DNA of 64,000 bases from Ferrimonas lipolytica (GTDB lineage: Bacteria > Pseudomonadota > Gammaproteobacteria > Enterobacterales > Shewanellaceae), in NCBI RefSeq assembly GCF_012295575.1, contig NZ_CP051180.1, forward strand, positions 2,542,001-2,606,000, read 5' to 3'. The position numbers and the translations under genes were made by a program. Every line of letters begins with the position of its first letter. Positions within the stretch are counted from its first letter, which is position 1. The notes beneath the pieces were generated by a model. It had not been told where the DNA came from. It made no database searches and was given only the letters and a program-made list of their open reading frames with translations. Of this stretch, positions 9,064 through 26,562 are shown one piece after another.

Positions 9064-9519
9064 ATGTTAACGCCTAGAAAAACGGCCGCTGCTTTGGTTG
9101 GCCTGTTTTATTGTAAAGCCAGCCTTGCTGGCTTTTTGACTATCCAACACCTTAATTTTGGTGAGGTTGTTAACAGTGATGTTAGTCAAGTTAGTACTGT
9201 TACGGTTCACCCTGACGGCCATACTAGCTCAACCAAGGCCCTATGGCGGATAACGCCAGGACAGCTTGGGCTTTACCAGCTCATTGGTTTGCCGCCCTAC
9301 ACAGTAATGTCCATTAGCAGTACTATTACTGTACCGGACTCCACAGGCCCCAATAATAACTCATTCAAGTTGACTGAAATTGTTACCCCAACAACTCTCA
9401 CCGCCGATATTTATGGTGAAGCACAACTTGAAGTGAGTGGTACCTTGGAAACCGTAAAAGGTAAACCGGCATTTGACGGTATTCACTCGACCTATTTCCA
9501 CATAACAGTCAGCTACTAA
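9064..9519 (+). CDS. Second, shorter DUF4402-like subunit
   Basis: Same overall plan as the gene before it: a hydrophobic N-terminal segment ending in KASLAG, then LTIQHLNFGEVVNS and a C-terminal strand YFHITVSY. The ORF can be opened from a TTG at 9043 inside the previous gene, but the ATG at 9064, ten bases after the previous stop, gives a normal signal peptide and 151 residues. No good Shine-Dalgarno is seen, so translation may be coupled. Likely a minor or tip subunit; this is inferred from size and order. Confidence 0.6.
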   Translation: MLTPRKTAAALVGLFYCKASLAGFLTIQHLNFGEVVNSDVSQVSTVTVHPDGHTSSTKALWRITPGQLGLYQLIGLPPYTVMSISSTITVPDSTGPNNNSFKLTEIVTPTTLTADIYGEAQLEVSGTLETVKGKPAFDGIHSTYFHITVSY

Positions 9520-9539
9520 ATAAAAGAATTAACCTTACC

Positions 9540-10340
9540 GTGAAAAAATTTATCTCTTTGGCGCTTTTTTGTTGCGCTTTTACTACCGTTTCTGTGCACG
9601 CCAACTTATTAATTAGTCCAACCAACGTTGTGATTGAAGATCGCCAACGCAGTAGCAATATCACGGTTATTAATAACGGTAAAACAACCCGAACTTATCG
9701 GCTCTCATGGCAACATAAACGCGCCAAACCGTCTGGCGGCTACGTCAATGTCACCGATACGCCACCGCTGCAGCTCGCTGCTGATCAGTTTATAAAAATC
9801 AGCCCTCGCCAGGTAACCTTAGCAGCAGGTGAACGCCAAACGATTCGCCTTTCCGCTCGCCGTCCCAAAGGGCTACTTGATGGAGAGTACCGCAGCCACC
9901 TGTTGTTTTCGGCACTGCCAGAAAATAAATCTGCAGCGGAGAATGGCGCCGGCGGCTCGATCAGTATTGATGTATTGATGAACTACTCAATGCCAGTAAT
10001 TGTTCGCCAAGGGCAAGATAAAGTAGCCGTCAATATTGCTGGCATCGAACATCGTCGCGCAGCAGATAGCAGTTCGATTGCAGTTCACTTTGAGCGTACA
10101 GGCAAACACTCTGTAGTAGGCAACGCCATTATCTATTGGCAGGCCTCAGCTACTGCCCCAACCCAAGAAGTAGCACGGATCAACGCTTATCGCCTGTACC
10201 CAGAGCTCGACCATGCTCAGCTGAATATCCCCGCCCACAGCGATATCCCTAACAGCGGTTTATTGTCAGCAAAATACCTTGGATTAGGTAAGGACAAAGG
10301 CAAATTACTTAGTGCGTCTGAAGCCATTGCCATTCACTAA
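9540..10340 (+). CDS. PapD-type periplasmic pilus chaperone
   Basis: A 266-residue protein with a GTG start and a signal peptide cut near VHA-NLL. The first Ig domain shows the usual chaperone pattern: LLISPTNVVIEDRQRSSNITV, then FIKISPRQVTLAAGERQTIRL, where family members place the conserved Pro and the donor strand, then DGEYRSHLLFSAL. A second beta domain follows. It is related to the chaperones of the Csu and alternate groups more than to PapD itself. It should bind the DUF4402 subunits in the periplasm and hand them to the 984-residue outer-membrane protein encoded 9 bases downstream. Confidence 0.8.
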   Translation: MKKFISLALFCCAFTTVSVHANLLISPTNVVIEDRQRSSNITVINNGKTTRTYRLSWQHKRAKPSGGYVNVTDTPPLQLAADQFIKISPRQVTLAAGERQTIRLSARRPKGLLDGEYRSHLLFSALPENKSAAENGAGGSISIDVLMNYSMPVIVRQGQDKVAVNIAGIEHRRAADSSSIAVHFERTGKHSVVGNAIIYWQASATAPTQEVARINAYRLYPELDHAQLNIPAHSDIPNSGLLSAKYLGLGKDKGKLLSASEAIAIH

Positions 10341-14754: not shown

Positions 14755-14772
14755 AATCGTAGCGATACGATT
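14755..14772. promoter_or_regulatory. LacI-type operator candidate before the SDR-like gene
   Basis: AATCGTA-GCGA-TACGATT is an inverted repeat. Its 16-base core (14756-14771) differs at one base from the operator at 23650-23665 in the sugar operon. It ends 14 bases before the ATG at 14787, overlapping the expected transcription start or leader, so a bound repressor would block this gene. Confidence 0.55.
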
Positions 14773-14786
14773 TTAGGAGCATTGCC

Positions 14787-15623
14787 ATGAAACCACGCGC
14801 ATTAGTAACCGGAGCCACCGATGGCATCGGTCGTGCTTTAGCCTTTGAACTCGCCCAACAGGGCTACAACGTCGATGTGCTTGGCCGCGATGCTAGTCGC
14901 GGTGAAGCGGTGCTCCAGCAGCTGCAGCAACTGCACCCAGAAGGCGAACATCAGTTACATCTAGTTGAACTGGCGACCATCAGTGCCAACAATGCATTTT
15001 TAGCTCGTTATACCCAGCAACATCAATCGTTACAGCTATTGGTCCTTAACGCCCTTCCCCACGGCAGCAAGACCAACATCAGTGACGATGGCATCGAATC
15101 TACCTTTGCGGTTGGCTGCGTCTCGCGCTACTTATTTAGCGAAGCACTAGAGCCGTTATTGCAGGCCAGTGACAACAGCCGCGTCATTCATATTGCAGAC
15201 CCAAGCCATCTGGATAACATCAACTACAAACTGCTTGAAGACGGTCGTACCGGCGTTGGTAAGGCAACCTTCCAAGCGTTTGCTGGCTGCAGCTTATTGG
15301 CCTACCACGTCAATAAATTTGGCCATTGCAACACCCCGCATGAGATCTACCACCCCGGTGCAACCTCAACTGGGCAAACCAAGAATCAAGGTCTGTTCAA
15401 TAAGCTATTCTCATTGATGATCAAGTGGCAAACCCCTGAACAAGCGGCACAGACGCTGCTACAACACATCAACGAGGTCAAAGCGGTTGATGCTGCCGGT
15501 AAGATCTATAAGCAAGGTGAACGCCAGAAAGCCAGTCCAAACCTGTTGATCGGCGAACCCGCCTACCGCGGTTTATTGGAGTGGCTGGAAGAGAAAACTC
15601 AGGTGACGTTTAGCACGAAGTAA
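14787..15623 (+). CDS. Short-chain dehydrogenase-like protein with degenerate active site
   Basis: A 278-residue Rossmann protein of the retinol-dehydrogenase-like SDR branch. The cofactor loop is intact (TGATDGIG at 8-15, GRD at 33). The catalytic set is not: where SDRs carry NAG it has NAL, the catalytic Ser of the VSS strand is replaced (IADPSH), and the Tyr-x3-Lys is replaced by Phe165-x3-Ser169. It may bind NAD(P) without classical SDR chemistry. TTTTAGGAG gives a good Shine-Dalgarno. The operator match just upstream links it to the regulator of the 16.5-26.5 kb sugar operon. Possible roles are a regulatory or scaffold protein, or an enzyme of altered mechanism. Confidence 0.7.
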   Translation: MKPRALVTGATDGIGRALAFELAQQGYNVDVLGRDASRGEAVLQQLQQLHPEGEHQLHLVELATISANNAFLARYTQQHQSLQLLVLNALPHGSKTNISDDGIESTFAVGCVSRYLFSEALEPLLQASDNSRVIHIADPSHLDNINYKLLEDGRTGVGKATFQAFAGCSLLAYHVNKFGHCNTPHEIYHPGATSTGQTKNQGLFNKLFSLMIKWQTPEQAAQTLLQHINEVKAVDAAGKIYKQGERQKASPNLLIGEPAYRGLLEWLEEKTQVTFSTK

Positions 15624-15765: not shown

Positions 15766-16080
15766 CTAAACCTGTTTGGCGTACAGGTACTTATGCGGCG
15801 CAAAGTACACCATAATTGGGGTTAGCATCGCTTTTGCTCCGGTTAGGTTACAGCCGGTGTGAATCGTTAATTTATCGTCACGTTTCACCTTAACCTGCAG
15901 CTTATTGGACCGCATCCAATCCAACTTAAAAAAGATCTCATGCTCACCTGGGGATAGGTCAAAGCTTAAGGTCTCACCGTCGCGGACCTCGCCAATCTTA
16001 TTTTTCTTGCCGTCGAACACTTTGTACTTACGGTTACGATCCACAAACATGCTATCGCGTTTTACCACTAACTGAGCCAT
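15766..16080 (-). CDS. Small protein of unknown function with beta-sandwich pattern
   Basis: A 104-residue protein without signal peptide or membrane segment. The pattern is a run of beta strands with YKVFDGKKNKIGEVRDGE, then LSPGEHEIFFKLDWMRSNKL. This recalls small PEGA-like or ligand-binding domains that share a GEHxxxxxxDWxxSN motif. One cysteine (Cys77). A perfect AGGAG precedes the ATG with a 5-base gap. A LacI-type operator lies about 120 bases upstream (16200-16215), so it may belong to the sugar regulon. Function unknown. Confidence 0.6.
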   Translation of the reverse strand: MAQLVVKRDSMFVDRNRKYKVFDGKKNKIGEVRDGETLSFDLSPGEHEIFFKLDWMRSNKLQVKVKRDDKLTIHTGCNLTGAKAMLTPIMVYFAPHKYLYAKQV

Positions 16081-16199: not shown

Positions 16200-16215
16200 T
16201 TCGTAGCGCTACGAC
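16200..16215. promoter_or_regulatory. LacI-type operator candidate
   Basis: TCGTAGCGCTACGA (16201-16214) is a perfect 14-bp palindrome identical to the core of the operator at 23650-23665. It may control the small gene starting at 16080 (minus strand) or a plus-strand transcript running toward the orphan hairpin at 16314. Confidence 0.6.
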
Positions 16216-16575: not shown

Positions 16576-17490
16576 TTATTTAGCTTCAGCAGCTTCGGCA
16601 GCAGCAATCGCCGCTTGACGAGCGTCTTCTTCTGCGCGGATAGCAGCAACTTTCTTACCGAAAATCAGTTGCAGAATCGCTACGCCACCGAAGGCAGGTA
16701 CCAGACAGGTCCAAGCAGGAACGTCCAAGTAGCCTTTAATCAGCATTGCACCAGAACCAATCAACAGCATGAATACCATCTTGCGGAAGATCGGAGTAGG
16801 AATACGCTTGTGAACCCACTGACCTACTAGAGAACCAGCAATCATAGTAGGGATACACAGGATAACTAACTTAACAGTAGAGATGGTCAGAATACCTGCA
16901 CCGGCCAAGCCGCCAATTACAGTCAAGTTGTTCGCAGTAAAGAAGGCGTTCAAAGTACCACGGAAAGCCGCAGGAGCTAGGTTACGCAACATACCGTAGA
17001 TAACAACTGGTGGACCATTGGTAGAGAATGCTGCACCCAGTGCACCAGCGATCACACCCATAGGTGCTGCAATCCAACCCTTGTCGTATACCGGTAAACG
17101 AGGAATAAACAAGCTGTAGAAAGAGTAAACAATCAGGAAGGTACCTAAGAAAGCTTTCATCATTGCATCTGGCAAGTAAGACAGAGCGTAGATACCCACT
17201 GGCACACCCAGAACGGAGAAACCGATCAGGACTGCTGCAGACTTCCAGTCAGTGTCTTTACGGGACAACCAAGTGGCGTACAAGGCAGTAGCGGTACCTA
17301 CCATTACCGACATAGGTGCTGCCATCTTAACTGGCAGCAACAGGGTAACTAGTGGCATGGTAGTTAAACCACCACCAAAACCAGCACAGATACCAACGAA
17401 GGTGTACATAAACATCAACGCAACAACCGTAAGGATGGTGCTGGTTTCTAACGCGACGCCGTCAGGCGTAAATAACTCGAAAAATTCCAT
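16576..17490 (-). CDS. TauE/SafE family membrane exporter (TSUP)
   Basis: A 304-residue inner-membrane protein with about eight hydrophobic segments. It has the TSUP family pattern in both halves: CAGFGGGLTTMPLV near residue 35 and GAAFSTNGPPVVIYGML near 150. The tail is Ala/Glu-rich. TauE/SafE proteins are tied to export of sulfite and of C2/C3 sulfonates such as sulfolactate or DHPS, and are a regular part of sulfoquinovose gene clusters. As last gene of the seven-gene operon it would remove the sulfonated end product. Direction and substrate are inferred. Confidence 0.82.
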   Translation of the reverse strand: MEFFELFTPDGVALETSTILTVVALMFMYTFVGICAGFGGGLTTMPLVTLLLPVKMAAPMSVMVGTATALYATWLSRKDTDWKSAAVLIGFSVLGVPVGIYALSYLPDAMMKAFLGTFLIVYSFYSLFIPRLPVYDKGWIAAPMGVIAGALGAAFSTNGPPVVIYGMLRNLAPAAFRGTLNAFFTANNLTVIGGLAGAGILTISTVKLVILCIPTMIAGSLVGQWVHKRIPTPIFRKMVFMLLIGSGAMLIKGYLDVPAWTCLVPAFGGVAILQLIFGKKVAAIRAEEDARQAAIAAAEAAEAK

Positions 17491-17520
17491 AGGAAACTAC
17501 TTCTATTTTAAAAAAGCGGA

Positions 17521-18348
<828 letters not shown>

Positions 18349-19218
18349 TTAAATTTTTGCGTTGCTGTTAACCACTTTATAAGTGGCACAGAAATCTTCG
18401 CCGCCGATGCCCTGCTCTAGACCTTTGTCGTAAACAGCTTTAACAACATCAGCACCAGGTAGCTTCAGGCCAGACTCGGCCATCATGGCGTTCATGATGT
18501 TTACGTCTTTAGCCATGTTCTCCAGCGAGAATGCAGTGGTGTAATCTTCTTTGGCGATGGCAGGCAGCTTGCCAGACATGTAGAAGTTGGAAGCGCCGCC
18601 GTAAGAAGCAGCCAAACCGAAATCTTCTTTATCGATGCCGTAGTGAACGCCAGCAGTAACCATTTCATTTACCGCGTTCTGGATGCCGCCAACTAAGTTG
18701 TTGTGCAGAATTTTCATTACCAGACCACGGCCATTAGCGCCTAAGTGGATCTGGTTAGAGCCCATCATCGCAAGGATGTGCTCAATCTTGCCGTAAGCTT
18801 CTTTGTCGCCACCGACGTAGATACCCAGCTCTGCTGCAACAGCAGCAGGCACAGACTTAACTACCGGTGCGTCCAGCATCACTGCGCCAGTGGCAGCAAC
18901 TTGAACAGACAGGTCTTCAGATACTGAAGGGTCGATAGTAGACATATCAATGGTGATCTGGCCGTCACGCAGATGTGGCAGCAGATCAGCGTATACCGCT
19001 TGAACATGCTCAGACTTAGGCACCATTGAGATGATTACGTCTGCTTTCTTAGCAATTTCAGCGCTAGACTCAACCGCAGTTGCGCCCGCTTCAACTAGCT
19101 TCGCTACCTGCGCTTGGTTGTAATCGAATACCAAAACGTCGCCGTCGTGCTTAGCAACGATATTTTTGGACATGGCTTCGCCCATCAGGCCCAGACCGAT
19201 AAAACCGATAGTTGTCAT
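18349..19218 (-). CDS. Beta-hydroxyacid dehydrogenase family reductase, YihU-like (sulfolactaldehyde reductase candidate)
   Basis: A 289-residue NAD(P)-dependent enzyme. It has the Rossmann loop GFIGLGLMG at 5-13, catalytic Lys169 in GRGLVMKILHNN with Asn173, and the all-alpha C-terminal half of 3-hydroxyisobutyrate dehydrogenases. The substrate loop, usually DAPVSGG, is DAPVVKS (116-122). The glycine place where YihU of E. coli has its sulfonate-binding arginine is Lys121 here. This points to an anionic aldehyde larger than tartronate semialdehyde, such as sulfolactaldehyde, reduced to DHPS. Stop and start overlap by one base with the lactonase gene. Alternative: tartronate or succinate semialdehyde reductase. 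Confidence 0.78.
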   Translation of the reverse strand: MTTIGFIGLGLMGEAMSKNIVAKHDGDVLVFDYNQAQVAKLVEAGATAVESSAEIAKKADVIISMVPKSEHVQAVYADLLPHLRDGQITIDMSTIDPSVSEDLSVQVAATGAVMLDAPVVKSVPAAVAAELGIYVGGDKEAYGKIEHILAMMGSNQIHLGANGRGLVMKILHNNLVGGIQNAVNEMVTAGVHYGIDKEDFGLAASYGGASNFYMSGKLPAIAKEDYTTAFSLENMAKDVNIMNAMMAESGLKLPGADVVKAVYDKGLEQGIGGEDFCATYKVVNSNAKI

Positions 19219-20093
19219 TATTTGTTCTCTTTGAAGGTTGGTTTAACCATGCCGGCAACGTCTGTGCGCATGGTAAAGATTGAGCCAGAAAGTGGCTTCT
19301 CTGCCAGTTCGGCTTCATCCATGTTTTCGCGAGTGGTAGTGATGTACAGCGTCTTCATATCGTCGCCGCCAAAGCACACCATCGTTGGGCAACGTACTGG
19401 CAGTTGATACTCTTCCAATACTTCGCCAGTCGGGGAGATACGAGCGATGCGGTGGCCATCGAACAATGCAGTCCAGTAGCAACCTTCAACATCCATTGCG
19501 CCGCCATCTGGACGACCATTGCCTTGTGGGAAGCGTTTAAACACTTCACGCATACCCAGCTCACCATCGGCGTCAATTGGGGTGCGGTACATCACGTGAT
19601 TTGGGGTATCAGTGTTGTACATCCACTGTTTGTCAGCGCTAAACGCTAAGCCATTAGCACCAAGGATGTCGCACTGCACTACTTTCGGAGTCAGGTCAGC
19701 ATCGATACGCATCAGCATGGCACCATTGAAGCTGCGTGGGCCCCAGTAGGTACCAGCAAAGAAGCGACCGTCTTGATCAACTCCGCCGTCGTTAAAGCGA
19801 GCGACCAGTGGGTTGTTCGGGTTTTCACATACGCGAGATTCAATCTTGCCGTTGGCATCAGCTAAGAAGATGCCAGTACGCATAGCTAGGATGAAACCAC
19901 CCTTATCACGCAAACCAAAGCAACCTACTTCTTCATCGAAGTTAAGCACTGAGTGCTCGCCGGTAGCAGGATCCAACGAGTGGATCTCTTGTTCAATGAT
20001 GTCGGTCCACAACAGCTTTTGCTGCGCCGAGTCCCAAGTTGGGCACTCTGGCAGATGGCCGATGTAGTCAAACAGAACTTCAGGCTTATTCAC
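19218..20093 (-). CDS. SMP-30/gluconolactonase family sugar lactonase
   Basis: A 291-residue six-bladed propeller enzyme that hydrolyses the aldonolactone made by the SDR dehydrogenase. Metal-site residues of the family are visible: Glu in PECPTWD (residue 16), Asn in GANGLAFSADKQ, and Asp in NGRPDGGAMDVEGCYW. Its neighbours make the step (lactone to aldonate) nearly certain, while the sugar is not. It overlaps the mutarotase gene by 8 bases. Confidence 0.85.
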   Translation of the reverse strand: MNKPEVLFDYIGHLPECPTWDSAQQKLLWTDIIEQEIHSLDPATGEHSVLNFDEEVGCFGLRDKGGFILAMRTGIFLADANGKIESRVCENPNNPLVARFNDGGVDQDGRFFAGTYWGPRSFNGAMLMRIDADLTPKVVQCDILGANGLAFSADKQWMYNTDTPNHVMYRTPIDADGELGMREVFKRFPQGNGRPDGGAMDVEGCYWTALFDGHRIARISPTGEVLEEYQLPVRCPTMVCFGGDDMKTLYITTTRENMDEAELAEKPLSGSIFTMRTDVAGMVKPTFKENK

Positions 20094-20982
20094 AATCGGA
20101 TACCTTAATGATCATAGTGACGGATACAGACTGACCTGGGCCAACCAGCTTCATCGCTTGGTCGTTACTACCACACGTCAGATCGTTAATAGCGTTATTT
20201 ACGTTGGTAACGGGTTCAATCGCCACGAAGTTTTTCTCCGCAGGCGGCATGAAGAACACCGCATTTTTCGCATCAGGAGAGATAACCTCAGCCTTCACCT
20301 TGGCGTCAGGCCAGCGCACCTCGGAGTGGCCATCCCAACCGGCAAAGCAGTTGTCTACCGAACCGGCAACAGGGGCACGCAATTCGCTGTAGTCCCACTT
20401 AGCTGGTACATCTTCAACCGCACAAGGCAGGGTGTTGGCATCGTTGAGCAGTACCTTTTTAGCAGCAAAGCGCACTAACGCGTCTTTGGCGTTAGCAAAG
20501 TACGGATGGAAGCCTAGACCTACCGGCACATTGCGCTCGGCTAGATTGAAGTAGCTCAGAGTCACGTGCAGCTCATTATCTTTAAGCTCAAACACCTGAG
20601 TAGCTTGGTATGGCCAAGGCCAGCTGTGATAGGCATCGCCTTCTGCTTGGTGGAGACACTTGAGGACTACACCGTTACTGGCCTCTTCGCTGATGATCCA
20701 CGGTTGATGCCATGCATTACCGTGGATGGTGTGCGGGTGCTCACCAAAGTTTTTTAACAGCTCAAATTGCTCGCCTTCAAACTCAAAGATGCCGTTAGCG
20801 ATGCGGTTCGAGAACGGGATCAGCGGGAAGCTGCCAGATTGGTTAACAATCACATTCTCAAGCGCAGGCAATGGACGCAAAATGTCTACGTCGCGGTATT
20901 GCAACGCTGCAATAGCGCCGCCCAGTTCAGGGGCAACTTTTAGGGTTAGGTCCCCGAGAGTTTTAGTGACGAGCTTAAGCAT
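20086..20982 (-). CDS. Aldose 1-epimerase (mutarotase)
   Basis: A 298-residue galactose-mutarotase-like beta-sandwich protein that interconverts alpha and beta anomers. The motifs NRIANGIFEFEGEQFEL, HTIHGNAWHQPW (family His) and VGLGFHPYFANA (second His) are all seen. The C-terminal acid lies in the VAIEPVTN segment. Mutarotases occur in sulfoquinovose clusters as well as in ordinary sugar operons; here it would feed the beta anomer to the dehydrogenase. Confidence 0.87.
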   Translation of the reverse strand: MLKLVTKTLGDLTLKVAPELGGAIAALQYRDVDILRPLPALENVIVNQSGSFPLIPFSNRIANGIFEFEGEQFELLKNFGEHPHTIHGNAWHQPWIISEEASNGVVLKCLHQAEGDAYHSWPWPYQATQVFELKDNELHVTLSYFNLAERNVPVGLGFHPYFANAKDALVRFAAKKVLLNDANTLPCAVEDVPAKWDYSELRAPVAGSVDNCFAGWDGHSEVRWPDAKVKAEVISPDAKNAVFFMPPAEKNFVAIEPVTNVNNAINDLTCGSNDQAMKLVGPGQSVSVTMIIKVSDCE

Positions 20983-20983
20983 G

Positions 20984-21775
20984 TTAGTAAACCTCGCCGC
21001 CGGATACGGTTAGCTCTTCGCCACGGATAGCAGCCAGCTGCTCTTTAGCACGAGCCAGCAAGTAGCTCATGTCAGAGCCCAGTGCTACGAACGAGAAGCC
21101 CATCTCTTGGTATTTGTTAGCCAGCTCAGGGTTGCCGCCAACAATGCCGCAAGGCAGGTTCATCGCCTTGGCTTTCGCCAGACCTTCGGCAATCTTGGCC
21201 TGAACTTCTGGGTGGCTTGGGTTACCGATGTGACCCATAGCCGCAGACATGTCGCCGGGGCCGATAAAGAAACCAGTTACGCCTTCTACTGCGCCAATGG
21301 CTTCCATGTTGTCAATTGCTTCAGGGGTTTCCATTTGCAGGATGAAGGCAATCTCTTCGTTCGCTTCACGAACAAAATCGGCTTTTGAACCGTACATAGA
21401 CGCACGGTGTACAGCTGCGAAACCACGCTTGCCTAGTGGCGGGTAGTAAGCGGCTTCTACCGCAGCACGAGCTTCTTCTGCGGTGTTGATAAAAGGAACC
21501 ATCAACGAGTTAGCGCCGCCGTCTAAGGCACGCTTGATCAGTACTACGTCATTCCAAGCCAAGCGGTACAGTGGAGTAGTCGTGGTGCTGGCGTTGCGAA
21601 TCGCACGATCGATGCGAACTGCGTCTAGTGAATCTACTGGTACGTGCTCTTGGTCCAATACCAAGAAGTCGAAACCGATGGTAGACATCGCTTCAGCAAC
21701 GGTGTCAGAGCCAGTCATCATCCAGGTACCCAGTTGGGTGTTACCGTTTTCGATGGCGTGTTTAAATTGGTTCAT
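20984..21775 (-). CDS. HpcH/HpaI class II aldolase (2-keto-3-deoxy-aldonate aldolase; KDSG aldolase candidate)
   Basis: A 263-residue metal-dependent aldolase that splits a 2-keto-3-deoxy sugar acid to pyruvate and an aldehyde. Seen are TWMMTGS near residue 18, FLVLDQEHVP with the base/metal region, Arg in PLYRLAWN, PPLGKRGFA, metal Glu in LQMETPEAIDN, and IGPGDMSAAMG with the metal Asp. These match the HpaI/RhmA/GarL family. In sulfo-ED the equivalent enzyme yields pyruvate and sulfolactaldehyde. It is tightly packed between the dehydratase and the mutarotase. Confidence 0.85.
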   Translation of the reverse strand: MNQFKHAIENGNTQLGTWMMTGSDTVAEAMSTIGFDFLVLDQEHVPVDSLDAVRIDRAIRNASTTTTPLYRLAWNDVVLIKRALDGGANSLMVPFINTAEEARAAVEAAYYPPLGKRGFAAVHRASMYGSKADFVREANEEIAFILQMETPEAIDNMEAIGAVEGVTGFFIGPGDMSAAMGHIGNPSHPEVQAKIAEGLAKAKAMNLPCGIVGGNPELANKYQEMGFSFVALGSDMSYLLARAKEQLAAIRGEELTVSGGEVY

Positions 21776-21845
21776 TGTTGTGATCCTTGTGACGCAACGG
21801 AGGGGCCGCCGTAACGGCCCAACATTTCAATTAGTGACTAACGAA

Positions 21846-23597
21846 TTAGTGAATTGGTGGCTCAGGAACATCGCTACCAGCTTGCAGGAAGTCGAAATCA
21901 CAACCTTCGTCAGCTTGGGTAACGTGCTGCTGGTAAAGGGCAGCGTATGAGCGGTCGAAGGTACGATGGGTTGGCTTCAGATGCTCACGACGATCGGCCA
22001 GCTCTTCGTCAGATACCAACATGTTCAAAGAACCCGCTTCGATATCCAGTTCGATGATGTCGCCAGTCTTAACCAGCGCCAATGGACCACCAACCGCAGA
22101 CTCAGGGGCAACGTGCAGGATACAAGTACCGTAGTGAGTACCTGACATACGTGCATCGGTGATACGAACCATGTCGTTCACACCCTGCTGCAGCAGTTTC
22201 TTAGGAATTGGTAAGTTGCCCCACTCTGGCATGCCTGGTGCGCCAACTGGACCTGCGTTACGCAGAATAAGTACTGAGTCTTTGGTGATGTCCAACTCTG
22301 GACTGTCGATGTTGTCAGACAGTGACTGATGGTCATCAAATACAACCGCTTTACCTTTGTGCTTGCGCAGCTCAGGCTTAGCAGCGGAGGACTTCATTAC
22401 CGCGCCATTTGGACACAGGTTGCCTTTCAGTACAGACAGAGCACAGCCCTGAGATAGTGGTACTACTGGGTTGTCGAGGTCACGGATGACGTTGTCATCG
22501 TAGCAATGAGCGTTTTCAATCCAGCTGCCCAAAGTAGTGTTGGTTACGCCAACCACATCTTTGTGCAGGAACTGCTCCAGTTTCTTCATCTGTGCCATCA
22601 AGCCGCCAGCGAAGAAGAACTCTTCCATCAGCTGGTCGCCAGATGGGAACAGGTTAGCCAGTACTGGTACCTTGCGAGCAATCGCTTCCATATCATCAAG
22701 AGTAATCTTGATCTTGGCGCGGTTAGCCATAGCAATCATGTGGATAGCAGCGTTGGTAGAACCACCAACAGCCATGTAAGCCACGATGCCGTTTATGAAG
22801 TTTTCACGCTTCAACCACTTCGACGGCTTGTGGTCGTGCCACACCATATCAACAATGGTTTCGCCACACTTCGCGGCCATCTGTACGTGGCGAGAATCGG
22901 CGGCAGGGATAGAAGAAGCACCTGGCAGCATGAAGCCAATCGCATCAGCGATAGAGGTCATGGTAGAAGCAGTACCCATGGTGTTGCAGGTACCGATTGA
23001 GCGAGTCATAGAACCTTCTAGCTCAATCCAATCGTGCTGAGTAATAGCGCCTAGACGTAGTTGATCCCAGTACTTCTTAGTGTGAGTACCAGCGCCAACA
23101 GTTTGGCCGCGCCATTTGCCAGAAGACATTGGTCCAGCTGGACAGAACAACATTGGGATATCCATAGATACCGCCCCCATCAGCATAGCTGGGGTAGATT
23201 TGTCACAGCCACCAAGCAAAACTGCGCCATCGATTGGGTGCTGACGTAGCAACTCTTCAGTTTCCATCGCTAGGAAGTTGCGGTACAGCATAGTAGTAGG
23301 CTTAACCAATACTTCGCCTACTGACAAAGCTGGTAGCTCTACAGGGTAACCACCAGCTGCCCATACTGCGCGTTTAACCGCTTCAGCACGCTCACGTAAA
23401 TGTGAGTGACAAGGGCTTAGCTCCGACCAAGTATTGATAATGCCGATTACCGGCTTACCCATAAACTCTTCGCGGTTCAGGCCTGCTTGTTGAGTGCGCT
23501 GGCGATGTGCAAAAGCTCGGATGGTGTCCGGCGCATACCAACGCTGGCTACGCAACTCAGAGATATCTAGTTTCTTAAGATTTTGAGTATTAAACAT
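21846..23597 (-). CDS. IlvD/Edd family sugar-acid dehydratase ([Fe-S]); sulfogluconate dehydratase candidate
   Basis: A 583-residue dehydratase that turns an aldonate into its 2-keto-3-deoxy form. Cys63 (SPCHSH), Cys131 (GGCDKST) and Cys204 (GTCNTMG) are the three cluster ligands of the pentonate/hexonate dehydratase branch, as in L-arabonate and xylonate dehydratases. The start at 23597 matches family N-termini (LRSQRWY just inside). First gene of the seven-gene minus-strand operon, behind the operators at 23650-23679. True dihydroxyacid dehydratase (IlvD) is unlikely given the gene context and the closer match to sugar-acid enzymes. Confidence 0.87.
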   Translation of the reverse strand: MFNTQNLKKLDISELRSQRWYAPDTIRAFAHRQRTQQAGLNREEFMGKPVIGIINTWSELSPCHSHLRERAEAVKRAVWAAGGYPVELPALSVGEVLVKPTTMLYRNFLAMETEELLRQHPIDGAVLLGGCDKSTPAMLMGAVSMDIPMLFCPAGPMSSGKWRGQTVGAGTHTKKYWDQLRLGAITQHDWIELEGSMTRSIGTCNTMGTASTMTSIADAIGFMLPGASSIPAADSRHVQMAAKCGETIVDMVWHDHKPSKWLKRENFINGIVAYMAVGGSTNAAIHMIAMANRAKIKITLDDMEAIARKVPVLANLFPSGDQLMEEFFFAGGLMAQMKKLEQFLHKDVVGVTNTTLGSWIENAHCYDDNVIRDLDNPVVPLSQGCALSVLKGNLCPNGAVMKSSAAKPELRKHKGKAVVFDDHQSLSDNIDSPELDITKDSVLILRNAGPVGAPGMPEWGNLPIPKKLLQQGVNDMVRITDARMSGTHYGTCILHVAPESAVGGPLALVKTGDIIELDIEAGSLNMLVSDEELADRREHLKPTHRTFDRSYAALYQQHVTQADEGCDFDFLQAGSDVPEPPIH

Positions 23598-23649
23598 GAA
23601 CTCGACTCACGAATAGTAAATGGGAATAATTTGTTGGGGTCTAATTTAC

Positions 23650-23679
23650 ATCGTAGCGCTACGATCGCAACGCTACGAT
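23650..23679. promoter_or_regulatory. Tandem LacI-type operators in the divergent sugar promoter
   Basis: ATCGTAGCGCTACGAT (23650-23665) is a perfect 16-bp palindrome. ATCGCAACGCTACGAT (23664-23679) overlaps it by two bases and matches at 14 of 16. They lie between the divergent dehydratase and symporter genes and are most likely bound by the LacI-type protein encoded at 25525-26562. Confidence 0.8.
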
Positions 23680-23687
23680 TGTGCATG

Positions 23688-23703
23688 TGTGACCTCATTC
23701 ACA
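23688..23703. promoter_or_regulatory. CRP binding site
   Basis: TGTGACCTCATTCACA fits the consensus TGTGA-N6-TCACA at every fixed base. It sits 9 bases beyond the tandem operators in the same divergent region, indicating cAMP-dependent activation of one or both transcripts. Confidence 0.8.
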
Positions 23704-23825
23704 TTCGCTGCCGATTCCGCATGAATTCTGTTAATTCAGTCATGTTTTTTTATCATGTCACGTTGGAATGCGCCTTATATGGTGCGATAGTCAGCTTAAT
23801 TCCTCTGATTTAGCCGTATTTACTT

Positions 23826-25547
23826 ATGACTGAAACCTTATTTGTATTAGCTAGCTTTCTAGCATTTATGCTCATCGTAGCGCTCTACTCCTACTCAAAA
23901 ACGAAAGGGATATCAGAGAGCGGAGTGTCCGGGTTCTTCCTCGCTGGCCGAGGCTTAACCGCTTGGTTTATTGTGGGTTCCTTATTGCTGTCGAACCTAT
24001 CTGCCGAGCAATTAGTGGGGCTAAACGGCAACGCTTACCGTTTCGACATTAGTGGTTTGGCTTGGGAAAGTTCCGCCGCGATCGCCACCATTGCGATGGC
24101 GCTGTTCTTTTTGCCGCGCTATCTAAAGCGCGGCATTACCACCATGCCGGAGTTTCTTGAAGAGCGCTTCGATGCCACCACGCGTCGAATGGTCAGCATT
24201 ATGTTCCTTATTGGTTACGCGATAATGGCCAACCCTTCTTCTCTATACCTTGGTGCTATCACTATGGATGAGATGTTTGGCTTGCATGAGTCGCTTGATA
24301 TCTCCTACTCCAGCTCCATCGCGATTCTTTCGTTGGTGATGGGTGCAGTCGGTGGTTTATATGCGGCCTGTGGTGGCCTGAAGGCGGTAGCAGTATCCGA
24401 TACCATTAACGGCATTATCTTACTGGTCGCCTCTATTCTGATCCCATTCCTTGGCTTAATGGCTCTGGGAGATGGTTCTATCAGCGACGGTTTTATGATG
24501 CTGGTAAATGAAAACCCAGAGCAGCTTAACGCCATCGGCGACGAGAACGCATCGGTTCCGTTTGGCACGCTGTTTACCGGTATGATCTGTGCCAACTTAT
24601 TCTACTGGTGTACTAACCAGATGATCATCCAGCGTACCCTTGGCGCTAAATCTTTGGCTGAAGGTCAAAAGGGTGTGTTACTGGCCGGCTCTATCAAACT
24701 TTTGGTACCGCTAGTAATGGTGCTACCCGGTCTTATTGCCTTCAACATGTTTGGCGATACTTTAGAAAATGGCGACGTTGCTTACCCAACGTTAGTTAAG
24801 GCAGTTCTGCCGTGGTGGTTAACTGGTCTGTTTGCAGCTGCGTTGTTTGGTACTGTAGTAAGCCACTTCAACTCCATTGTTAACTCCTCGGCAACACTAT
24901 TTGCAATGGACTTGTACGGCCCGCTGACGGGTTGTACCGATGAAAAGAAGCTGGTTAAGGTTGGCAAATGGGGATCTGTTGCCTTTGCACTAGTGTCTAT
25001 CGCTATCGCACCATTGCTACTGGATGCCCCTGGCGGGATATTCGATCTGCTGCGCCGCTTTACCGGTTTCTACAACATCCCAATCATCACCATTGTATTG
25101 GTAGGCTTTCTGACTAAACGCGTTCCAGCTGTGGCCGCTAAGTTTGTCCTCGGCTTCCACATCGTCTTCTACGGCAGCTACATGTTTGCTGGTTTGGATG
25201 AGATGATCGATCTGCACTACATCCACATCATGGGTATCATGTTTGCGTTGGAAGTGGGCATCATGATGTTGTTTGGTAAACTAATGCCTAAAACCGACTA
25301 CCAACCCAAAGAGATCAAGCCAGTTATCCCTATGCAACCATGGCACCATGCTAAGAGCATGAGCGTATTCATCGTGGCAGGTCTAGTGACCATCTACGTA
25401 ACGCTGTCGCCATTGGGCTTGGCTAACCCAGATGGTATCGCCAACACATATCCGATGTTAGTTGCTGGGATTTGGATGATTGCTGTGGTAATTATTCGCC
25501 AATTAAGAAAATCAGTTACTGGAAATGCCTGTGCGTCCACCAATTAA
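23826..25547 (+). CDS. Sodium/sugar symporter (SSS family)
   Basis: A 573-residue inner-membrane transporter with about 13-14 hydrophobic segments and SSS signatures: FFLAGRGLTAWFIVGSLLLSN near 37-57, GGLYAACGGLKAVAVSD near 178, and the Na+-site region FGTVVSHFNSIVNSSATLFAMDLY near 340. It resembles vSGLT/YidK sugar symporters rather than proline or acetate carriers. Divergent from the degradation operon and overlapping the LacI-type gene, it is the likely uptake system for that sugar. If the substrate is sulfoquinovose this would be Na+-driven uptake of a sulfonated sugar. Confidence 0.87.
   Translation: MTETLFVLASFLAFMLIVALYSYSKTKGISESGVSGFFLAGRGLTAWFIVGSLLLSNLSAEQLVGLNGNAYRFDISGLAWESSAAIATIAMALFFLPRYLKRGITTMPEFLEERFDATTRRMVSIMFLIGYAIMANPSSLYLGAITMDEMFGLHESLDISYSSSIAILSLVMGAVGGLYAACGGLKAVAVSDTINGIILLVASILIPFLGLMALGDGSISDGFMMLVNENPEQLNAIGDENASVPFGTLFTGMICANLFYWCTNQMIIQRTLGAKSLAEGQKGVLLAGSIKLLVPLVMVLPGLIAFNMFGDTLENGDVAYPTLVKAVLPWWLTGLFAAALFGTVVSHFNSIVNSSATLFAMDLYGPLTGCTDEKKLVKVGKWGSVAFALVSIAIAPLLLDAPGGIFDLLRRFTGFYNIPIITIVLVGFLTKRVPAVAAKFVLGFHIVFYGSYMFAGLDEMIDLHYIHIMGIMFALEVGIMMLFGKLMPKTDYQPKEIKPVIPMQPWHHAKSMSVFIVAGLVTIYVTLSPLGLANPDGIANTYPMLVAGIWMIAVVIIRQLRKSVTGNACASTN
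23874..23889. promoter_or_regulatory. Possible auxiliary operator inside the symporter gene
   Basis: ATCGTAGCGCT, the first 11 bases of the operator, recurs 49 bases into the symporter gene (12 of 16 positions in all). It is 224 bases from the main operator, a distance compatible with looping by a tetrameric LacI-type repressor. It may be chance. Confidence 0.25.
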
Positions 25548-26562
25548 AAAGAGCATCAAGCTGGATGACGTTGCATCGTTGGCGGGAGTGTCTCCGTCAA
25601 CCGTGTCACTGTACGTCCGTCGCCCTGACAAAGTCTCCGCCAATACCGGAACTAAGATTCAACAAGCGATCGACGAGTTAGGCTATGTGCACAATAAAAT
25701 TGCCAGCCAACTGACTGGGGGCAGAAGTCAATCAATGGCTCTGCTGGTGCCTTCAATCGCCAACATCGCCTTTAGCGAAGCGATACAGCAGATTGAAAAG
25801 CAGCTAAGTCAGGCTAACTACACATTGTCTATCGCAACCTATGATCACGACCTCGACAAAGAAGAGGAACAGATCCGTTCGATACTGGCGTGGAAGCCAG
25901 CGGCTATTGCCATCACCGGTGCGACGCATAAGCCGAATACGATTAAGATGCTTAAAGCGTCTGGGATCCCGGTGGTACAGATGTTTCAGGTCGACCGCGG
26001 CGATTTTACTGCTCAGGTGGGCATCAACCACACCAAAGCGGGCTATGCTGCGGCTGACTATTTACTAGAAACTGGCTGTAAAAAACCAGCCTATTTCAGT
26101 ACTCGGTTAGAAGACGATGTTCGTGCCAAAAAGCGTTGCAATGGCTTCATTGCGGCACTAGAAGAACACAATATCGAGCCTGTAGTGGTCGATATTGCTG
26201 GCAATGAAAATATCTATGCGGCCACCCGCCCTGCGCTGCTTAGGGCAATGGTAGCGAACCGAGGAATTGATGGGATCTTTGCCTCAAACGACTCCATCGC
26301 TACCGCGTTGCTAATGGAAGCAAACGACAAAGGCATTAAGGTGCCAGAACAGTTAAGCATCCTCGGCTTTGGTGACTTCCCCTACAGTGGTTACTTATCG
26401 CCAGTATCGCTCAGCAGTATGAGTTTGCATGCCAAGCAAGTGGCACGCCACAGCGCTGAAATGATGCTTAGAATGGCGCAAGATGAAAGCTATGAAGGTG
26501 AACGGATTGATGTTGGCTTTGAGATCATCCCACGTCAAAGTACGCGGTTACCTGCTATCTAA
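25525..26562 (+). CDS. LacI-family transcriptional regulator of the sugar operon
   Basis: A 345-residue repressor-type protein. The helix-turn-helix is at about residues 12-35 (LDDVASLAGVSPSTVSLYVRR), the hinge helix near 57-62 (KIASQL), then a periplasmic-binding-like effector domain (ALLVPSIANIAFSEAIQQIE, IFASNDSIATALLMEA, LSILGFGDFPYSGYLSP). It resembles the GntR/IdnR branch. Its start lies 23 bases inside the symporter gene, so the two are co-transcribed and the regulator probably controls itself. The operator consensus is ATCGTAGCGCTACGAT, seen at three to four places in this window. Confidence 0.88.
   Translation: MPVRPPIKKSIKLDDVASLAGVSPSTVSLYVRRPDKVSANTGTKIQQAIDELGYVHNKIASQLTGGRSQSMALLVPSIANIAFSEAIQQIEKQLSQANYTLSIATYDHDLDKEEEQIRSILAWKPAAIAITGATHKPNTIKMLKASGIPVVQMFQVDRGDFTAQVGINHTKAGYAAADYLLETGCKKPAYFSTRLEDDVRAKKRCNGFIAALEEHNIEPVVVDIAGNENIYAATRPALLRAMVANRGIDGIFASNDSIATALLMEANDKGIKVPEQLSILGFGDFPYSGYLSPVSLSSMSLHAKQVARHSAEMMLRMAQDESYEGERIDVGFEIIPRQSTRLPAI

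Follow-up and report, generated by a model that had tools for sequence, protein, structure and literature searches.

The nine open reading frames (ORFs) at positions 16576-26562 of the stretch of Ferrimonas lipolytica DNA analysed here (the window: 64,000 nucleotides of contig NZ_CP051180.1, from 2,542,001 to 2,606,000, in a genome that is a single contig of 4,133,133 bases) form a cluster that we hold, with considerable confidence, to encode a variant of the sulfo-Entner-Doudoroff (sulfo-ED) pathway that forms 2,3-dihydroxypropane-1-sulfonate (DHPS). The cluster very probably lets this marine bacterium use half of sulfoquinovose (SQ), a sulfosugar of plants and algae, while discarding the sulfur half as DHPS. 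The gene content, the kinship of the encoded proteins, a conserved sulfonate pocket in the short-chain dehydrogenase/reductase (SDR) and a conserved palindrome are read directly from the sequence. Seven of the genes make up a minus-strand run (23597 down to 16576) in the order IlvD/Edd dehydratase, HpcH/HpaI aldolase, aldose epimerase, SMP-30 lactonase, beta-hydroxyacid dehydrogenase, SDR and TauE permease; a sodium:solute symporter (SSS) and a LacI regulator are encoded on the plus strand, divergent from this run. An original prediction, made from the sequence alone, had assigned genes of these families to these places, and both the ORF positions and the Pfam matches confirm it:

16576..17490, minus strand: TauE/SafE-family permease, candidate DHPS exporter (PF01925, 114.8 bits)
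17521..18288, minus strand: probable sulfoquinovose 1-dehydrogenase of the SDR superfamily (PF13561/PF00106; best PDB match 9gwu)
18349..19218, minus strand: beta-hydroxyacid dehydrogenase, putative sulfolactaldehyde reductase (PF03446/PF14833)
19218..20093, minus strand: SMP-30 lactonase, putative sulfogluconolactonase (PF08450, 263.3 bits)
20086..20982, minus strand: aldose 1-epimerase, putative sulfoquinovose mutarotase (PF01263, 113.9 bits)
20984..21775, minus strand: HpcH/HpaI aldolase, putative aldolase for 2-keto-3,6-dideoxy-6-sulfogluconate (KDSG) (PF03328, 113.8 bits)
21846..23597, minus strand: IlvD/Edd dehydratase, putative sulfogluconate dehydratase (PF00920/PF24877)
23826..25547, plus strand: sodium:solute symporter, candidate sulfoquinovose importer (PF00474; NF007790, 680 bits, cut-off 401)
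25525..26562, plus strand: LacI-family regulator (PF00356/PF13377)

The route set out next is inferred throughout: each reaction, which way the reductase runs, what the transporters carry, how the cofactors balance and how the genes are regulated. Free SQ would enter via the SSS symporter and be mutarotated, whereupon the SDR would oxidise it to sulfogluconolactone, making NADH. The SMP-30 lactonase would open this lactone, the IlvD dehydratase would convert the product to KDSG, and the HpcH aldolase would split KDSG into pyruvate, which the cell would keep, and sulfolactaldehyde (SLA). The beta-hydroxyacid dehydrogenase would then reduce SLA to DHPS, using NADH, and the TauE-type permease would export it. 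The conversion of a C6 unit into two C3 units would be redox neutral, with one NADH made by the SDR and one used by the reductase, and a LacI repressor acting on ATCGTAGCGCTACGAT would switch both divergent units.

The seven-gene arrangement is not a product of chance, since the same order, from the dehydratase to TauE, recurs in 10 of 12 related loci fetched from other species. These ten come from Vibrio owensii, two Buttiauxella, Mixta tenebrionis, two Enterobacter, Citrobacter amalonaticus, Leminorella grimontii, Edwardsiella anguillarum and Aeromonas cavernicola, and thus span Vibrio, Aeromonas and six Enterobacterales genera. The search that retrieved the loci had the SDR as its query and brought in close relatives only; the 12 loci are uninformative on prevalence.

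Kinship of the dehydrogenase and the dehydratase

The best PDB match of the SDR is 9gwu, a sulfoquinovose 1-dehydrogenase, at 323.6 bits, with the next of the 698 distinct PDB sequences matched at 207.4 bits. The protein is 59.8% identical to the SQ dehydrogenase of Pseudomonas putida SQ1 (PpSQDH) and 54% identical to the SDRs of the Rhizobium WSM4643 and Shinella HZN7 clusters, the two against which identities to canonical-layout clusters were computed throughout. According to the accessible text of PMC12133307, PpSQDH contacts SQ through Asp99, Arg101 (at the C3 hydroxyl), Gln198 and, for the sulfonate, Arg152, and Arg154 via water. In alignment to PpSQDH the window SDR keeps Asp45, Asp99, the Asn-Ser-Tyr-Lys tetrad, Gln198 and both Arg152 and Arg154, and thus has the sulfonate arginines of an SDR-superfamily SQ dehydrogenase, Arg101 not being kept. 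Arg152 is present in all 12 gammaproteobacterial relatives and Arg154 in 11 of them (Lys in L012, from Vibrio xiamenensis). Residues 101/152/154 read Arg/Arg/Arg in Rhizobium WSM4643 and Arg/Arg/Asn in Shinella HZN7; the rows of two other plasmid-borne SDRs, from Acinetobacter and Roseibium, have neither pocket arginine, and the two next solved SDRs have no arginine at the 152 or 154 positions in the printed PDB-match alignments. In the tree the window SDR pairs with that of V. owensii (94/88, just under the starred level), the pair belonging to a starred group (95/93) that includes A. cavernicola.

The dehydratase gives a parallel picture. Three plasmid clusters, from Rhizobium sp. WSM4643 (L014), Shinella sp. 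HZN7 and Shinella sp. WSD5-1 (L015 and L016), show the canonical layout: their gene lists have an 'L-arabinonate' dehydratase, an aldolase, SMP-30, an SDR, an 'alpha-glucosidase' (GH31), a TauE/TSUP transporter, a 'succinate-semialdehyde dehydrogenase' and an ABC importer, and from this layout and the SDR they are probably sulfo-ED clusters. The window dehydratase is 69-70% identical to the Rhizobium and Shinella cluster dehydratases, scoring 941-954 bits against them with phmmer versus 583 bits against the solved L-arabinonate dehydratase (9evv/5j83). Since the Rhizobium cluster enzyme itself scores 600 bits against that same structure, the two are about equally distant from it. In the tree the window dehydratase again pairs with V. 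owensii (98/95, starred). The original prediction had named a grouping with characterised sugar-acid enzymes as the outcome that would tell against it; the SDR groups instead with the characterised SQ dehydrogenase, its sulfonate arginines kept, and the dehydratase scores far higher against the canonical-layout clusters than against the solved L-arabinonate dehydratase.

An IlvD/Edd dehydratase, an HpcH/HpaI aldolase and an SMP-30 lactonase are all clustered with the SDR. Identities to the Rhizobium and Shinella counterparts are 48-49% for the aldolase, 43-45% for the SMP-30 lactonase and just some 30%, across part of the protein, for the TauE permease, of which 10 of the 12 fetched loci have a homologue of 75-79% identity in the corresponding position. 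The best PDB match of the aldolase is HpcH (2v5j, 199 bits), and there is no KDSG aldolase among its PDB matches. We also considered a uronate or galactarate route, built on an SDR, a lactonase, a GarL-like aldolase and a GarR-like reductase. Here, the SDR is a relative of SQ dehydrogenases, and the evidence against such a route includes the scores of the aldolase on the GarL model (228.7, cut-off 406.75) and of the reductase on the tartronate-semialdehyde reductase model (147.7, cut-off 340.75).

Three more plasmid loci, from Acinetobacter (L017), Roseibium (L018) and Burkholderia (L019), carry SDR relatives without the full layout and were among the sequences compared. The last of these, at 1273-11056 of L019, lies on a Burkholderia multivorans plasmid typed as conjugative. 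Its SQ-dehydrogenase-like SDR (49%) is accompanied by genes for an IlvD protein, an aldolase, an epimerase and an ABC importer; the gene table for this stretch, which is incomplete, shows neither a lactonase nor TauE nor an aldehyde dehydrogenase.

The reductase and the alternatives

In place of the SLA dehydrogenase of canonical sulfo-ED the cluster has a reductase of the beta-hydroxyacid dehydrogenase family, as is expected of a DHPS-forming variant. PF00171, the SLA dehydrogenase family, has no match among the nine proteins, to which the search was confined. The reductase shares 65-79% identity with its positional counterparts in 10 loci and 27-30% with two YihU proteins (both above the YihU cut-off); its best NCBIfam model is 3-hydroxyisobutyrate dehydrogenase, at 168 bits with a cut-off of 291.6. 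A motif PVVKS is invariant in all 11 reductase rows; the lysine of this motif, Lys121, aligns with YihU Arg123, which we take to bind the sulfonate, and Lys169 with YihU Lys171, presumably the catalytic residue. That the enzyme would reduce SLA is suggested by the position of its gene and by work on Vibrio, not by residue Lys121. In a search of plasmid records, none of the 1168 that matched held a relative of this enzyme with an identity of at least 60%. Elsewhere in the host genome, a stretch at G000:C1:2481714-2482607 is a better match to the YihU model than the operon reductase (213 bits, below the cut-off) and holds one in-frame TAG.

The Vibrio work concerns V. splendidus JLJ25 (PMC13372026, 17 June 2026). 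In the accessible text of that paper the strain grows on SQ with near-stoichiometric release of DHPS, sulfolactate not being detected; four sulfo-ED proteins are more than tenfold up on SQ, and a knockout of the SQ dehydrogenase abolishes growth on it. The JLJ25 cluster includes a reductase gene, no SLA dehydrogenase homologue was detected according to the same text, and the reductase has 31.2% similarity to YihU, in the same range as the identity of the window reductase to YihU. A sulfo-ED operon with a reductase ending and DHPS as product, as originally proposed, is thus supported both by the kinship of the SDR and dehydratase and by the growth, metabolite, proteome and knockout data from JLJ25. 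The accompanying view that such an ending was unknown for sulfo-ED has been overtaken, as it was predicted for A. cavernicola (PMC12133307) and shown in Vibrio (PMC13372026), going by the accessible parts of both papers. The description of this ending as fermentative in style is doubtful, Ferrimonas balearica, the type species of the host genus, being described as strictly respiratory in the accessible text of PMC3035368.

Several observations weigh against a DHPS-forming sulfo-ED pathway and have to be set beside this evidence. In the SDR, the position of PpSQDH Arg101 is occupied by His in the window protein and in all 12 gammaproteobacterial relatives, i.e. in all 13 rows of the window clade, and Arg154 varies, being Asn in Shinella HZN7 and Lys in L012. 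The shared histidine would fit another sulfosugar as the substrate (e.g. sulfofucose) with the same end product, and a sulfofucose ED pathway exists in Paracoccus (accessible text of PMC12421959). The dehydratase of that pathway, however, is of the PF13378/PF02746 type, no PF00920 dehydratase being encoded in that genome according to the same text, whereas the dehydratase of the window is of PF00920 and the PF13378/PF02746 feature is not found there; moreover, the reductase-type Vibrio cluster is reported as proven for SQ (accessible text of PMC13372026). The sulfofucose pathway is rejected on its dehydratase, which belongs to another superfamily, and a sulfosugar other than SQ appears very improbable in general.

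NCBIfam labels the dehydratase as L-arabinonate dehydratase, at 887.8 bits against a cut-off of 882 (about 6 bits over), and the best NCBIfam model of the SDR is D-xylose 1-dehydrogenase, albeit at 287 bits, below the cut-off of 400. Both labels would suit an operon oxidising an ordinary sugar (L-arabinose, D-galactose, D-fucose or D-xylose), with the reductase acting on the C2 or C3 aldehyde released. For the dehydratase as an L-arabinonate enzyme, the narrow NCBIfam margin counts in favour and the phmmer scores (583 against 941-954 bits) count against. The 'L-arabinonate' label does not separate this possibility from sulfo-ED because the Rhizobium and Shinella cluster dehydratases bear it too, and both the SDR and the dehydratase are closer to sulfo-ED enzymes than to the solved sugar enzymes. 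On this kinship and the kept sulfonate-pocket arginines we reject the oxidation of an ordinary pentose or hexose, to which we would give only a very small chance.

As for the reductase, it scores 125.9 bits on NF012005, the equivalog model of the YihU sulfolactaldehyde 3-reductase, far short of the cut-off of 348, and a role of Lys121 in sulfonate binding is one suggested by alignment. The 'YihU-like' reductase of the original prediction thus stands as a relative within the superfamily, and its identity as a YihU orthologue is rejected on this score. The enzyme might run in reverse or on another aldehyde, with SLA converted to sulfolactate by an enzyme encoded elsewhere in the genome: canonical sulfo-ED ends in sulfolactate (PMC12890257, 2026 review, accessible text), and DhpA of Desulfovibrio, a DHPS dehydrogenase homologous to YihU, oxidises DHPS (PMC9594981, 2022 review, accessible text). 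Two observations stand against this: each of the 10 fetched loci that have the cluster carries the reductase gene within the operon, and JLJ25 accumulates DHPS, as cited above. We lend such a reversal hardly any credence.

Finally, the likeness to the JLJ25 cluster rests on its published description and the order of its locus tags rather than on sequence, and the P. putida SQ1 cluster was compared by sequence for the SDR only. The original prediction had remarked on the lack of a GH31 sulfoquinovosidase in the window, which is borne out, with none found genome-wide either: GH31 has no match in the host genome, the control search being positive in 6 of 14 reference genomes including Escherichia coli. 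With no GH31 found, probably only free SQ, or SQ freed by another enzyme, is usable.

Related loci, predicted operator and possible acquisition of the operon

The divergent SSS and LacI genes accompany the cluster in 9 of the 12 loci, the LacI homologue (47-63%) being at the same place. The loci that lack the seven-gene order, L010 (10001-10765, Mixta sp. Marseille-Q2659) and L012 (10001-10765, V. xiamenensis), have SQ-dehydrogenase-like SDRs of 73% and 69%, and the stretch examined holds none of the other sulfo-ED genes; the L012 contig ends about 245 bases past the match. A 16-bp palindrome, ATCGTAGCGCTACGAT, is found between the divergent units, with 0 or 1 mismatch, in all 9 fetched loci with SSS and LacI, and is probably the LacI operator. 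In A. cavernicola a palindrome with two mismatches begins 17 bases before the first open start of a GPH symporter frame, and none is present in L010 or L012. The window and the 12 loci together have 14 sites at up to two mismatches, compared with a mean of 0.10 and a maximum of 4 for scrambled palindromes (300 draws). The window alone has 4 sites at up to three mismatches versus 0.22 expected, and the host genome has 6 at up to two mismatches, of which 4 fall in the window; the reversed pattern gives 3. While the other fetched clusters have one palindrome site each, two of the window's four lie outside the operon promoter (14756 and 16200), next to neighbouring genes:

14756..14771: copy of the predicted operator with one mismatch, situated 15 bases ahead of the second SDR gene
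14787..15623, plus strand: second, divergent SDR gene, possible extra regulon member (PF00106, 59.4 bits)
15766..16080, minus strand: 104-aa ORF downstream of the 16200 site, possible extra regulon member (no Pfam match)
16200..16215: two-mismatch copy of the predicted operator
23650..23679: predicted operators in the divergent promoter, with ATCGTAGCGCTACGAT as a perfect palindrome (23650-23665) overlapped by a copy that has two mismatches (23664-23679)

LacI would bind at these palindromes, and the two extra ones, before the second SDR gene and the 104-aa frame, suggest a wider regulon in this strain. The second SDR gene was found in one of 14 genomes of the genus, its own, at E <= 1e-20. 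One may go further and picture the DHPS-forming sulfo-ED cassette as a transferable unit with its own LacI regulon, to which, in this Ferrimonas, the divergent SDR and the 104-aa protein have been added under the same repressor, contributing an undescribed sulfosugar step; we regard this as unlikely, if worth stating.

The distribution of the operon is consistent with transfer into a variable site: the SDR is present, at E <= 1e-60, in one of the 14 genus genomes, its own, whereas the neighbouring pdxJ is present in all 14, and in four relatives (in one of which the stretch is ended by the contig end) era-recO-pdxJ-acpS is followed by other genes, none matching those of the operon. The GC content is 50.0% for the operon and 48.9% for the rest of the window. 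In a sample of the class, the reductase was found at E <= 1e-60 in one of 369 genomes, its own, and the SDR in four, the other three at 45-49% identity. In a sample of the order, 3 of 394 genomes had the SDR at E <= 1e-90: its own, one with a match of 86% that adjoins SMP-30, reductase and TauE genes, and one with a match of 59% next to a LacI gene in a 3.7 kb stretch. In both samples, scoring covered no more than 6 or 7 candidates in each genome. E. coli genomes gave no DNA match to the SDR in a search by blastn only. When the host 16S gene was compared with plasmid records, the eight matches listed had 88-89% identity, and one further record fell in the 95-99% band.

Genes with the look of the yih-type sulfo-Embden-Meyerhof-Parnas (sulfo-EMP) route adjoin the cassette in Enterobacter sp. 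ENT03 (L005, 13085-20082) and C. amalonaticus (L006, 11735-20329). Both have a second reductase nearby, scoring 550 and 566 bits, respectively, on the YihU model (cut-off 348). L005 further has a GH31-type protein at 1180 bits on PRK10426 (cut-off 553), a model that we take to be YihQ, and a D-mannose-isomerase-like protein, as YihS would presumably be, at 513.5 bits, below the cut-off of 600. Of the ten proteins scored in this comparison, four had no family match at threshold; as these include two of the three from L006, a full yih cluster is less firm for that locus. Thus, these two organisms may hold two routes from SQ to DHPS, and sulfoglycolysis genes beside the cassette make a good sulfosugar context for it.

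Comparison with known systems

The pathway is not new, having been demonstrated in Vibrio in June 2026; what is new is Ferrimonas as a host of the published variant. Further additions are that the reductase is not a YihU orthologue and that a palindrome, probably the LacI operator, is conserved across clusters, with two extra copies before neighbouring genes. Open-licence PubMed Central literature yielded no paper on sulfoquinovose together with Ferrimonas or with Leminorella, and none combining sulfoquinovose, Entner-Doudoroff, LacI and operator. Ferrimonas, some members of which reduce iron, would join the probable primary SQ degraders that release DHPS, a sulfonate on which other bacteria feed. 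The reductase-type cassette is not confined to Vibrio but occurs also in Aeromonas, Enterobacterales and Ferrimonas, in most cases with a common predicted operator, and comes with a warning, in that annotation names its key dehydratase an L-arabinonate dehydratase.

With the sulfo-EMP yih cluster the window shares a beta-hydroxyacid dehydrogenase that would reduce SLA to DHPS, while the upstream chemistry differs. With canonical sulfo-ED, as in P. putida SQ1 and L014-L016, it has in common the SDR, SMP-30, IlvD, HpcH and a TauE-family transporter; L014-L016 have an aldehyde dehydrogenase, GH31 and an ABC importer, while in the window a reductase and an SSS symporter are found and GH31 is lacking.

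Closer parallels are seen in the reductase-type clusters. Certain bacteria with sulfo-ED, of which A. cavernicola is an example, have a gene for an SLA reductase homologue and might produce DHPS (PMC12133307, 2025, accessible text). In A. cavernicola DSM 24474 (L011) the seven genes stand in the order of the window, 67-87% identical except for the mutarotase (49%). Unlike the window, this locus has an OmpL/KdgM-type porin gene between the reductase and SDR genes (9284-9973) and two GPH symporters in place of the SSS symporter, with no LacI or SSS match in the stretch examined.

Among Vibrio, 81 genomes carry sulfo-ED and all are predicted DHPS producers according to the accessible text of PMC13372026. 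The JLJ25 cluster described there differs from ours in its host, Vibrio as opposed to Ferrimonas, and the main text of the paper is without the words symporter, exporter or regulator. It has the same enzymes as the window cluster, namely an SQ dehydrogenase, a lactonase, an aldolase, a dehydratase and a reductase replacing the SLA dehydrogenase, and the same end product, DHPS, the one detected there and predicted here. Its tags in the ACZ2GX_ series (07095 for the SQ dehydrogenase, 07105 for the lactonase, 07115 for the aldolase and 07120 for the dehydratase; PMC13372026, accessible text) fit the order of the window, with room for two intervening genes.

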